In this document: positions 4,838 through 58,145 of the stretch, one piece after another
How the letters are laid out: every line of letters begins with the position of its first letter
Position numbering within the stretch: the first letter of the stretch is position 1
Origin: Brachybacterium aquaticum
GTDB taxonomy: Bacteria; Actinomycetota; Actinomycetes; Actinomycetales; Dermabacteraceae
DNA: 64,000 nt
Reading direction: 5' to 3'
Assembly (NCBI RefSeq): GCF_014204755.1
Contig: NZ_JACHLZ010000001.1
Coordinates: forward strand, 2,356,001-2,420,000
Notes under the pieces: model-generated
What the model saw: the letters and a program-made list of their open reading frames with translations, nothing else
Told to the model about the DNA's origin: nothing
Databases searched by the model: none
Position numbers and translations under genes: made by a program

Positions 4838-5569
4838 CTACTCGCGCGGGCCGAAGATCGCCGAGCCCACGCGGACGATGGTCGCGCCCTCCTGGACCGC
4901 GATCTCCAGGTCGCCGCTCATCCCCATGGACAGCTCGGTGAGCTCCTCGGCGCCGAGCCGCTCGCGCACCTCGTCGCGCAGCTCCCGCAGGGAGCGCAGC
5001 GAGGCGCGCACCGCGGTCTCGTCGCTGGTGTTCGCGCCGATCGTCATGAGGCCCACGGGCCGCAGCCACGCGCCGCCGCGCAGGCGCTCGACCACCGGGG
5101 CGATCTCGTCGGCCGACGGGGCGTAGCCGCCCTTGGACTCCTCGCCGGAGGTGTTGACCTGGATGAGCACGTCGCGGCGCAGCTCCGCGAGCTCGGCCCG
5201 GCGTGCGAGGGCATCGGCGATGTCGTCGCGGTCCACGCTGTGGATCAGTTCGGCGAAGGCGACGACGTCCCGGGCCTTATTGGTCTGGAGGCGGCCGATG
5301 AAGTGGCGGGGCACCCCGTTCTCCGCGAGCAGGGGGTCGGCGTGCTTGGCGATCTCCTGGGCGCGGTTCTCCCCCACCGCGATCCGGCGGCCGCGCTCAC
5401 TCAGCAACTCGATCACCTGGGAGATCTGAGCAGGGGTGCGGGTCTTGGTCGCCAGCAGCAGCGTGATCTCCTGCGGGTCCCGGCCTGCGCCGGTGGCGGC
5501 GTCGTCGATCCGTCCGAGCACCTCGTCGAGGCGGGCGGCGAGCTGGGGGTCGGCTGCGGAGGAGGTCAT
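4838..5569 (-). CDS. YggS/PROSC-family PLP homeostasis protein
   Basis: A 243-aa single-domain fold-type III PLP protein thought to buffer free PLP; no enzymatic activity is established for the family. LLLATKTRTPAQI carries the PLP lysine, FIGRLQTNKARDV is the conserved phosphate-side motif, and SMGMSGDLEIAVQEG plus RVGSAIFG close the barrel. Start is uncertain: ATG 5569 (MTSSAADP) and ATG 5578 (MDAMTSS) are both possible and neither has a clear Shine-Dalgarno. The frame is open to 5659, but that extension is not family-like. In many Gram-positives this gene sits near division genes; here its neighbours are a ROK regulator and a tRNA. An in-frame GTCGGCCGAC word at 5108 encodes PSAD. Confidence 0.9.
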   Translation of the reverse strand: MTSSAADPQLAARLDEVLGRIDDAATGAGRDPQEITLLLATKTRTPAQISQVIELLSERGRRIAVGENRAQEIAKHADPLLAENGVPRHFIGRLQTNKARDVVAFAELIHSVDRDDIADALARRAELAELRRDVLIQVNTSGEESKGGYAPSADEIAPVVERLRGGAWLRPVGLMTIGANTSDETAVRASLRSLRELRDEVRERLGAEELTELSMGMSGDLEIAVQEGATIVRVGSAIFGPRE

Positions 5570-5650
5570 GGCATCCATTGTGGCCCGGACCCGGCGGTGG
5601 TGCGCCCGCCATGCGCCGTCCGAGCGCTGACCGAGCGCTGAAGGGCCGCG

Positions 5651-5724
5651 TGCCCCCACCGGGACTCGAACCCGGACTGTGCCGATTTTAAGTCGGCCGC
5701 CTCTGCCGATTGGGCTATGGGGGC
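5651..5724 (-). tRNA. tRNA with anticodon UAA (nominally Leu), short variable loop
   Basis: A full cloverleaf of 74 nt: acceptor GCCCCCA/TGGGGGC, anticodon stem GCCGA/TCGGC around loop CTTAAAA (anticodon TAA), T arm CCGGG-TTCGAGT-CCCGG and discriminator A. CCA is not encoded. The D stem is 3 bp plus a C-A mismatch. The variable region is only ACAGT, whereas bacterial tRNA-Leu normally has a long variable arm. It should read the very rare UUA codon. See the separate finding. Confidence 0.85.
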
Positions 5725-5771
5725 GGGAGCGGGGATCCGTCCCGGTCGCTCACCTTATGCTGGAACGCATC

Positions 5772-7931
5772 ATGACCGCTGCGATCCGGTCCCTCGCGGA
5801 CTCCCTGCGACGATTCGGCGACGAGCGCCTGGAGGCCCTGCTCCTCGCCCGGCCGGACCTCGCCTCCCCGCTGCCCCGCGGGCTCGGTCCGCTGGCCGCC
5901 CGCGCCGGCGGCGCCACCTCCGCCCGCCGCGCCCTGGACTCGCTCACCCTGCCGGAGCTTCATCTGGTCGAGGCGCTCGCCGTGCTCGAGGACGGCGCCT
6001 CCCCCTCCGCCCTCGCCCACGCCGTCTCCTCCGATCCGGCCACGATCGCCCCGGCGCTCGAACGGCTGATCACCCTGGCGGTGGTGTGGGGCGAGGACGA
6101 GCTGCACCTGCTGCGCCCCCTGCGCGACGGGATGCGCGCCCCCGCCGGCCTCGCGCCCGTCTCCCCCGACGACCCGTCCCCCGAAGAGGCCGCGCGCCGC
6201 GTGGAGGCCGCCCGGGAGACGCTCGGCCCGGCGCTCGAGGCCCTCGCCTGGGGCCCCAGCGCCGTCACCGGCTCGGGCAAGCTCGCGGCCGCGCTGCGCC
6301 GCGCCGGGATCGTCACGGCCGACGGGGACTCCCTGCACATCCCGCGCCCGGTCCATCTCGCCCTGCGCGGCGGGCGGGTGCGCCGCACCCACACCGCCCT
6401 GCGTCCGGGCCCCGAAGGGCCCGAGGTCACCGAGCGGATCCCCGGCTCCCGCACCGCCCAGGCCGTCGAGCGGGCCTTCGAGGCGCTGCGGCTGCTGGGC
6501 ACAGTGCGCGGCTTCGACGAGGACCCGCCCGGGGTGCTGCGCCGCGGCGGGCTGCCCCAGCGGGACCTGCGGCGCCTGGCCGAGAGGGCGGGCGCCCCGC
6601 TGCTGGACCATGCGACCGTGCTGCAGTCCGCCTGGCAGGCCGGGCTGATCGGACACGACGGCCAGGAATGGCGTCCCACGAGGGACTGGGACGCCCACCG
6701 TCAGCTGCCCGCCCCGCGCCGCTGGGCCGAGCTGGTGCTCGCCTGGGCGCGCGGCCACCATCTCGCCGCAGTGGTGGGCACCCCGGACTCCTCCGGGACC
6801 GGACGCTCGCTGATGTCGGACCTCACCCGCCGCGACGGGGTGCGCACCCGCCGCGGGAGCCTGCTGCGCCTGCTGCTGACCACCCCCGGCATCGACGCGA
6901 CCGAGGACTCCCTCGTCGCCGCGCTGGCCTGGGCGTTCCCGCTCGTCCCGCCCGAGGTGCTGCGCGAGGAGACCTCGGCGCTGCTCGTGGAAGGGAAGGC
7001 GCTCGGGGTGCTGGACGGCGGGTGTCTCACGGTGCTCGGCCAGGAGCTCGTACCGGCGCTGGACGAGGACGTCACCCTCGCCGATGCGCGCCTGGCCGCG
7101 GTGCTCGAGGATGCGGCGCCGCCGCCGGTGGACGAGGTGCTGCTGGACGCGGACCTCACCGCCGTGATCCCGGGCCGCCCAGCGGAGCGGCTGCTGCCGC
7201 TGCTGGACTGGACCGAGGTCGTCTCCCGCGGCGGGGCGCTCACCCTGCGCTTCAGCGCCGCGACCGTGCGGCGCGCGCTCGGTGACGGCCGCGACGCGGA
7301 GGCGCTGCTCACCCTGCTCGGCGAGGTCTCCCGCTCCCCCGTCCCCCAGGGTCTGGAGTACCTGCTGCGCGACGAACAGCGCCGGCACGGACGGGTGCAG
7401 GTCTCCCGCGCCGCGACGGTGCTGACCGCGGAGGCAGAGGTGCTGGACCTGCTGCAGGTCGCACCGGAGGCGACGGCGCTCGGCCTGCACCGACTCGCCC
7501 CGACGGTCGCGGTCACGCTGTCCGATCCGGGATTCGCGCTGCAGATCGCCCGCCAGGCCGGGCTGGCCCCGCACGCCGTCGGCCCCGACGGGAAGCCGGT
7601 GGCGGCAGAGCTCGCGCACTCGCTGCGCGGCGGGCCCGTGGACCCCGACCTGGTCACGGTCGAGGGTCCCGAGCTGCGCCTGCCCGCCCAGGAGGCGGTG
7701 GCGAGGATCCGCGCGGCGGAGGAGGGCGCCACCGACCTGTCGGTCACCGACCGGCTCCTGGATGCGATCGCCCGCGGGGACGAGATCCCGCTGGGGGTCG
7801 TGGACGGCCAGGGCGGGGTCGTGGTGAAGCAGGCCCGCCCGCTCTCGCTCGAGGGCGGCCGTCTGCGCGCGCGGGAGTCCGGCAGCCAGGAGGAGTTCAC
7901 CGTCCTCGTGCACCGGGTGACCCTGGGCTGA
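5772..7931 (+). CDS. Helicase-associated domain protein (XPB partner)
   Basis: A 719-aa soluble protein rich in Leu, Ala and Arg. It resembles the actinobacterial helicase-associated proteins (Helicase_C_3 / XPB N-terminal-like, the Rv0862c type) that lie beside XPB-family helicases. RGSLLRLLLTTPG and LGLHRLAPTVAVTLSDPGFALQ match the pattern I know from that group. No Walker motifs are visible, so it is probably a DNA-binding or regulatory partner and not itself a helicase. The XPB helicase lies 2.4 kb downstream, separated by a small membrane gene and gnd. I chose ATG 5772: TATGCT ends 10 nt before it and no ribosome site is seen, so the mRNA could be leaderless. ATG 5757 is an alternative. 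Confidence 0.75.
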   Translation: MTAAIRSLADSLRRFGDERLEALLLARPDLASPLPRGLGPLAARAGGATSARRALDSLTLPELHLVEALAVLEDGASPSALAHAVSSDPATIAPALERLITLAVVWGEDELHLLRPLRDGMRAPAGLAPVSPDDPSPEEAARRVEAARETLGPALEALAWGPSAVTGSGKLAAALRRAGIVTADGDSLHIPRPVHLALRGGRVRRTHTALRPGPEGPEVTERIPGSRTAQAVERAFEALRLLGTVRGFDEDPPGVLRRGGLPQRDLRRLAERAGAPLLDHATVLQSAWQAGLIGHDGQEWRPTRDWDAHRQLPAPRRWAELVLAWARGHHLAAVVGTPDSSGTGRSLMSDLTRRDGVRTRRGSLLRLLLTTPGIDATEDSLVAALAWAFPLVPPEVLREETSALLVEGKALGVLDGGCLTVLGQELVPALDEDVTLADARLAAVLEDAAPPPVDEVLLDADLTAVIPGRPAERLLPLLDWTEVVSRGGALTLRFSAATVRRALGDGRDAEALLTLLGEVSRSPVPQGLEYLLRDEQRRHGRVQVSRAATVLTAEAEVLDLLQVAPEATALGLHRLAPTVAVTLSDPGFALQIARQAGLAPHAVGPDGKPVAAELAHSLRGGPVDPDLVTVEGPELRLPAQEAVARIRAAEEGATDLSVTDRLLDAIARGDEIPLGVVDGQGGVVVKQARPLSLEGGRLRARESGSQEEFTVLVHRVTLG

Positions 7932-58066: not shown

Positions 58067-58073
58067 CCTATCG

Positions 58074-58145
58074 AGCTGGAGACGAGATTCGAACTCGCAA
58101 CCACCTGTTTACAAGACAGGTGCGCTACCGTTGCGCCACTCCAGC
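58074..58145 (-). tRNA. tRNA-Thr (anticodon UGU)
   Basis: 72-nt cloverleaf: acceptor GCTGGAG/CTCCAGC, anticodon stem CCTGT/ACAGG with loop CTTGTAA (anticodon TGT), T arm GCGAG-TTCGAAT-CTCGT with a G-T end pair, discriminator T. CCA is not encoded. Confidence 0.93.

Follow-up and report, generated by a model that had tools for sequence, protein, structure and literature searches.

A class I tRNA gene with anticodon UAA, very probably leucine-specific, in Brachybacterium aquaticum and other Actinomycetes

The tRNA locus

The window is the whole stretch of 64,000 nucleotides analyzed here (positions 2,356,001-2,420,000 of the Brachybacterium aquaticum genome, which forms one contig of 3,449,336 bases). 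Near one of its ends lies a tRNA gene (Table 1), which ARAGORN calls as tRNA-Leu with anticodon taa at 5650-5724 minus and which the Rfam tRNA model matches with an E value of 9e-11. Both programs confirm an earlier note on this DNA, which had described a class I tRNA of 74 nt with anticodon UAA and a variable loop of 5 nt, ACAGU; the note gave no strand, and the strand is minus. The acceptor stem has 7 bp, the D stem 3 bp, and the anticodon and T stems 5 bp each. Folding of this strand gives z = -2.73, an equal fold being reached in 1 of 200 shuffles. In the available text of one review (PMC7609411), class II is defined by a variable region of at least 10 nt, and allo-tRNA or selC-like genes, comparable to tRNA-Sec, by a longer acceptor stem combined with a long variable arm. 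The 5-nt loop and the 7-bp acceptor stem place the window tRNA in neither group.

The protein encoded downstream is probably of the YggS type, and a helicase-domain gene diverges from the tRNA on the other side. A scan of 5450-5950 for a promoter and a terminator found nothing, a weak test in GC-rich DNA. Three blocks of a Brachybacterium paraconglomeratum locus (L159; Micrococcales, Dermabacteraceae) are collinear with the window at 84-91% identity. The window holds one other tRNA, a tRNA-Thr(UGU) of ordinary structure (58073-58145 minus).

Table 1. Features of the tRNA-Leu(UAA) locus, in window positions.
Feature	Position	Strand	Evidence
Class I tRNA-Leu(UAA) gene, 74 nt, CCA not encoded	5651..5724	-	ARAGORN; Rfam RF00005, 61.1 bits; sequence
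Anticodon UAA inside loop CUUAAAA	5688..5690	-	ARAGORN; sequence
Variable loop ACAGU, 5 nt (positions 44-48), supplying U48 of the A15-U48 pair	5676..5680	-	cmscan alignment; ARAGORN structure
D arm: 3-bp stem, C13/A22 unpaired, leucine-type D loop AAUCGGCAGA (A14, A15, G18, G19, A20a)	5699..5715	-	ARAGORN; identity scoring; alignment of relatives
Discriminator A73	5651..5651	-	sequence
Alanine-racemase N-terminal domain protein, encoded on the tRNA strand, downstream	4838..5569	-	Pfam PF01168, E 7.7e-15; ORF list; start chosen by eye
Helicase_C_3 domain protein, divergent neighbor of the tRNA	5772..7931	+	Pfam PF13625, E 9.9e-25; ORF list; start chosen by eye

The tRNA complement of the genome

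The Rfam tRNA model detects 49 tRNAs in the genome, and ARAGORN also names 49. The UAA anticodon is found on one of them, the class I gene, which as the sole UAA tRNA of its genome is like a bldA-type gene. A second tRNA-Leu(UAA) of class II, for which the earlier note had advised a search, is absent from the 49 tRNAs detected in this one-contig genome, and by standard decoding the class I gene alone can therefore read UUA. The remaining tRNA-Leu (CAA, CAG, UAG, and GAG) have variable regions of 13-17 nt, vs. 5 nt in the UAA gene, and long arms are also found on four tRNA-Ser and one tRNA-Tyr.

Distribution of the class I and class II forms

Within the family of the window genome, a match is present in 44 of 47 genomes, the three misses being drafts of 410-530 contigs, and all 30 of the family matches read are class I tRNA-Leu(UAA). 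A wider census was based on 296 evenly drawn Actinomycetes genomes, the same set being used for every pattern. A strict class I UAA pattern has one match in each of 127 genomes and none when reversed. A class I pattern without the D arm, A73 included, matches 159 genomes (those read individually being among the matches listed), and eight further genomes with a 6-nt loop, matched by the strict pattern alone, bring the class I total to 167. The class II UAA pattern matches 44 genomes, including family f25, whose sequences presumably match Streptomyces bldA. No genome matches both the class I and the class II patterns, against 24.8 expected; the corresponding P of ~1e-18 assumes independent genomes, an assumption that does not hold. 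Neither pattern matches in 85 genomes, whose D arms or loops may differ, and to that extent the census is incomplete. A class I search with two mismatches reaches 209 genomes and is unfit as a census, since class I Leu(CAA), class I Leu(UAG), and some non-tRNA stretches are picked up as well. The class I tRNA-Leu(UAA) is common in the sampled Actinomycetes and no local oddity; the rarity implied by the earlier note was wrong.

A phylum-level sample gave matches in 40 of 198 genomes, of which two look chance-like by eye. Named genomes contribute at least 119 stretches, for example in Nocardia, Mycobacterium, Corynebacterium, Rhodococcus, Gordonia, Amycolatopsis, and Microbacterium. Outside Actinomycetota, the matches listed include single cases in Planctomycetota, Rokubacteria, "Deltaproteobacteria," Chloroflexaceae, and one cyanobacterium, and one Blastocatellia stretch among them in which ARAGORN finds no tRNA. 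The phylum of the gene-bearing "Deltaproteobacteria" MAG has matches in 9 of 148 genomes, which are tRNA-like in that MAG and perhaps in one more. A second UAA gene, of class II by a strict pattern, occurs only in the Rokubacteria MAG among 16 named class I genomes, a finding that counts against the leucine reading.

Several variants accompany these genes. A class I sub-form with a 6-nt variable loop is seen in L191-type loci and in genomes G094, G127, G052, G056, G068, G080, G098, and G300. Class I tRNAs with the leucine anticodons CAA or UAG occur in many Actinomycete genomes (families f10, f20, f37, and others). At three loci outside Actinomycetota (L157 384-670, L177 1499-1655, and L154 216-780), the class I UAA gene follows a tRNA-Cys, joined by a tRNA-Gly in L157; we take this tRNA-Cys to class I UAA order to resemble glyW-cysT-leuZ of E. 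coli.

A locus shared with bldA-type genes in other families

The neighborhoods of class I and class II genes were compared in 12 regions. Family f42 contains both forms, class II in G309 and class I in G151, G173, G258, and G333. Enolase, DUF501, and Ppx/GppA genes lie upstream on the tRNA strand in all five of these genomes, and a Bax-inhibitor-like gene lies downstream in four, the contig of G151 ending ~1.2 kb past the tRNA. The three upstream genes are common to f42 and G183 (f43, class I). An upstream oxidoreductase gene is common to G062 (f23, class I), G141 (f41, class II), and three of the five f42 genomes, and the downstream Bax-inhibitor-like gene of f42 recurs in G141 and G064 (f25), both class II, at 32-35% identity. 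Because these neighbors are common to class I and class II genes, the two forms are positional counterparts in families f42, f43, f23, f41, and f25, and in some families other than that of the window genome (f23, f42, f43) the class I gene occupies the bldA position. Among the 12 regions, no common neighbors are found in G193 (f43, class II), G049 (f10, class I), or the window genome, and the window tRNA does not lie in the Streptomyces gene neighborhood of bldA.

One tentative and rather doubtful reading of this arrangement is that in Actinomycetota a separate class I lineage with a characteristic core (A9, C13/A22, A46-G47-U48) took the place of the bldA-type class II gene at its locus on more than one occasion. 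This lineage is also borne by phages and tRNA arrays, on which class I Leu tRNAs for further leucine codons are found as well. Were such an exchange true, bacteria would in nature need no long arm for leucylation, and the short form might owe its spread to escape from enzymes that grip long-armed tRNAs, for instance seryl-tRNA synthetase or tRNA-targeting toxins.

Leucine identity elements

Leucine identity in E. coli lies in A73, A15-U48, G18G19, A20a, and contacts between the D and T loops, and neither in the anticodon nor in the long arm, as described in the accessible part of PMC9976931. The elements A73, A14, A15-U48, G18G19, and A20a are all present in the window tRNA. When the 49 tRNAs of the genome are scored for A73, A14, A15, U48, the GGNAG motif, and unpaired 13-22 (the last criterion being our own, adopted after inspecting class II Leu genes), the full set is found in five, which are exactly the five tRNA-Leu, class I UAA included.

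The alignment of relatives adds to this picture. Among 140 distinct relatives of the same 74-nt length, the pairs of the acceptor, anticodon, and T stems are each kept in 131-140 sequences with many compensatory changes; U8, C13, A14, A15, G18, and G19 are invariant, and U48 and A73 are each kept in 139. Most relatives were found by patterns that fix AGAGGC, CTTAAA, and GTTCRANNC, so that invariance there, A20a included, is by construction; the eight positions just named lie outside the fixed letters. Among 265 distinct relatives with any D-loop length, A73 is kept in 263 and U48 in only 221, the latter figure counting against the leucine reading. Positions 9, 13, and 46 also set the class I core apart from that of class II Leu, again to the disadvantage of the leucine reading: A9 is found in 244/262, C13 in 259/262, and A46 in 231/246 class I sequences, whereas class II UAA genes have G9 (30/30) and G13 (29/30). 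These differences imply that a plain deletion of the arm from a class II tRNA-Leu is not the whole story.

We put at roughly 88% the probability that the window tRNA, the sole UUA tRNA, is a class I leucine tRNA charged by an ordinary leucyl-tRNA synthetase (LeuRS) through A73 and the core rather than through a long arm. The tRNA is very probably leucine-specific; its expression, its charging by LeuRS, and its wobble reading are inferred. An ordinary LeuRS would recognize A73 together with the D-loop/T-loop core (A14, A15-U48, G18G19, and A20a) and would have no need of the long arm. A further expected effect of the short arm is to keep seryl- and tyrosyl-tRNA synthetase off the tRNA, which would read UUA and, probably by U34 wobble, UUG.

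Leucyl-tRNA synthetase

In the window genome, a single LeuRS exceeds the family cut-off; weaker hits of the LeuRS profile, in other open frames, are probably related synthetases. A LeuRS above the cut-off is found in 29 of 30 Actinomycete genomes (18 with the class I gene, 12 with class II). Its two layouts are a short type of ~830-890 aa and a long type of ~940-1040 aa, in which additional sequence lies near profile position 142. Class I bearers have 7 short-type and 11 long-type enzymes, and class II bearers have 7 short-type and 4 long-type enzymes, no hit reaching the cut-off in one further genome. The C-terminal domain of bacterial LeuRS contacts the tRNA elbow in the complexes, according to the text available for PMC3927953.

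A special adaptation of LeuRS in these lineages could be what permits a class I tRNA, an explanation to which we give little credence. The 29 enzymes were aligned as a long-type set of 15 (11 class I vs. 4 class II) and a short-type set of 14 (7 vs. 7). Nine of 950 columns separate the two kinds of bearer in the long-type set, as such an adaptation would predict, but at least one fully separating column also arises in 113 of 200 label shuffles. In the short-type set, none of 827 columns separates them, and the 10 near-separating columns are reached in 33 of 300 shuffles. Separating columns thus do not go beyond label shuffles in either alignment, and both LeuRS layouts are found with both tRNA forms.

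Reading of UUA codons

UUA is rare in this DNA, as the earlier note had stated: the window genome has 5 TTA among 9,235 leucine codons in 229 ORFs (17 stretches, 384 kb, ~11% of the genome). By eye, four of the five fall close to ORF starts whose true position is probably further downstream, one of these codons being inside the tRNA-Leu(UAA) gene, and the fifth sits in a spurious-looking ORF. The meaning of the codon was examined in other class I genomes, at 149 loci picked by a class I match, where 617 TTA codons fall in 277 of 792 mechanical ORFs; some of these ORFs are probably in the wrong frame, a source of noise seen, for example, in CTT, which reaches only 33.6-47.5% leucine. Leaving aside pairs in which both codons are TTA, leucine stands opposite TTA in 59.7% of 1,624 pairs, compared with 55.6% for TTG and 57.5% for CTA. 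The value is 65.8% of 923 pairs under a stricter filter (TTG 66.4%, CTA 68.0%) and 68.1% of 436 pairs under the strictest (TTG 73.2%, CTA 70.9%). At TTA sites with at least three comparisons, leucine is the commonest residue in 124 of 173. Near class I genes, TTA aligns with leucine as TTG and CTA do.

The tRNA might carry another amino acid, UUA being reassigned or ambiguous in these bacteria. The long arm is the textbook mark of bacterial tRNA-Leu, and the departure of the core from class II Leu at three positions points the same way. Against this stand the identity set, which the window tRNA has in common only with the four further Leu tRNAs of its genome, the alignment of TTA with leucine, and the position of the class I gene, which in other families is that of a class II tRNA-Leu(UAA). 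Another identity, one of two options left open by the earlier note, is on these grounds improbable. The other option, acceptance of the class I tRNA by LeuRS, agrees with the identity set, the TTA-leucine alignment, the single LeuRS, and the locus occupied by either class elsewhere; the charging itself is a prediction.

The earlier note also called a bldA-like regulatory function conceivable. A developmental switch of the bldA kind, in which scarce UUA codons would be read only on maturation of the class I tRNA, we rate as equally improbable. The rarity of UUA would suit such a switch, as would the class I genes of f23, f42, and f43, which lie in the neighborhood of class II UAA genes, the Streptomyces type included. 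However, none of the five TTA codons is convincing by eye, the sampled genes being practically TTA-free, and no regulatory target gene is seen in the sampled ~11% of the genome. A switch of this kind thus finds no support in this genome, although the bldA position is occupied by class I genes in other families.

Mobile copies

Class I tRNA-Leu(UAA) is found on Rhodococcus phage Trina, cyanophage P-RSM6, plasmid tRNA arrays of Mycolicibacterium and Mycobacterium, and a 1.35-Mb Arthrobacter plasmid. The analysis covered four of seven phage records (the other three belong to phages already among the four) and eight of 12 plasmid records; the four phage and eight plasmid records together contain seven class I tRNA-Leu(UAA), one half gene, and four other tRNAs (Trp, Lys, Arg, and class I Leu(CAA)). 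Viral contigs yield at least 120 stretches, in which 119 class I UAA tRNAs were read with a pattern that itself fixes the short loop. The fetched loci also include class I Leu tRNAs with CAA, UAG, GAG, CAG, and AAG anticodons. That the window gene is a non-functional or mobile stray, as its close relatives on phages, plasmid tRNA arrays, and viral contigs might suggest, is the least probable explanation and a very unlikely one, given that it is the only UAA tRNA of the genome, that it is retained across the family, and that its stems are kept with compensatory changes.

Two of the mobile or clustered loci have features of their own. In Rhodococcus phage REQ2 (L075 301-351), ~51 bases correspond to the 3′ portion of a tRNA-Leu(UAA) and lie beside the integrase gene, a proper 5′ half being missing; the fragment looks like an attachment site, and the class I tRNA gene is therefore probably an integration target. 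In Cylindrospermum sp. NIES-4074 (L190 1815-4535), a tRNA array has all five leucine anticodons on tRNAs with variable loops of 5-6 nt, next to long-armed Ser and Tyr tRNAs.

Significance

Cytosolic tRNA-Leu is called class II in the accessible text of two reviews (PMC9976931; PMC7609411). In the window genome, UUA is left to a class I tRNA alone, and this form matches in 167 of 296 sampled Actinomycetes. A full-text literature search, with subscription papers mostly outside its reach, returned no description of a bacterial class I tRNA-Leu(UAA), of a class I/class II exchange at the bldA locus, or of the scale of the class I form. A specialist should find that scale and the possible exchange surprising. 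The independence of E. coli LeuRS from the arm, a laboratory result, gains a natural test in these genes, and the bldA locus suits a clean swap experiment. Software that relies on the long arm to assign tRNA identity could get class I Leu genes wrong.

Comparison with known systems

The window tRNA is like bldA of Streptomyces in its anticodon UAA, A73, A14, A15-U48, and leucine-type D loop, and class I genes of other families lie in the neighborhood of bldA. The window tRNA differs in that bldA has a class II arm of 13-17 nt with G9 and G13, whereas the window-type tRNA has A9 and C13. The regulatory role of bldA is established in the available text of PMC4932002; the same role is without support for the window tRNA.

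A bacterial leucine anticodon on a short variable loop has already been published for a tRNA-Leu(UAG) of a mycobacterial tRNA cluster, which differs in its anticodon and in supplementing a normal class II gene as an additional copy within a cluster of mobile appearance (PMC6582537, in the part available). In M. tuberculosis, tRNA-Leu-2, 3, and 5 have long loops, the remaining ones being undescribed in the accessible part of that source (PMC11541572).

Human mitochondrial tRNA-Leu(UUR) is likewise a UUR leucine tRNA charged without a long arm, its identity depending on A73 and A14, as far as the available text of PMC9976931 goes. It is organellar and served by its own mitochondrial LeuRS, whereas the window tRNA is bacterial and the other Leu tRNAs of the same cell are class II. 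The same partial source describes minimal or truncated E. coli tRNA-Leu variants that lack the long arm and are still active, being leucylated while A73 and the D/T-loop contacts remain (PMC9976931). Those variants are laboratory constructs, in contrast to the natural gene of the window.
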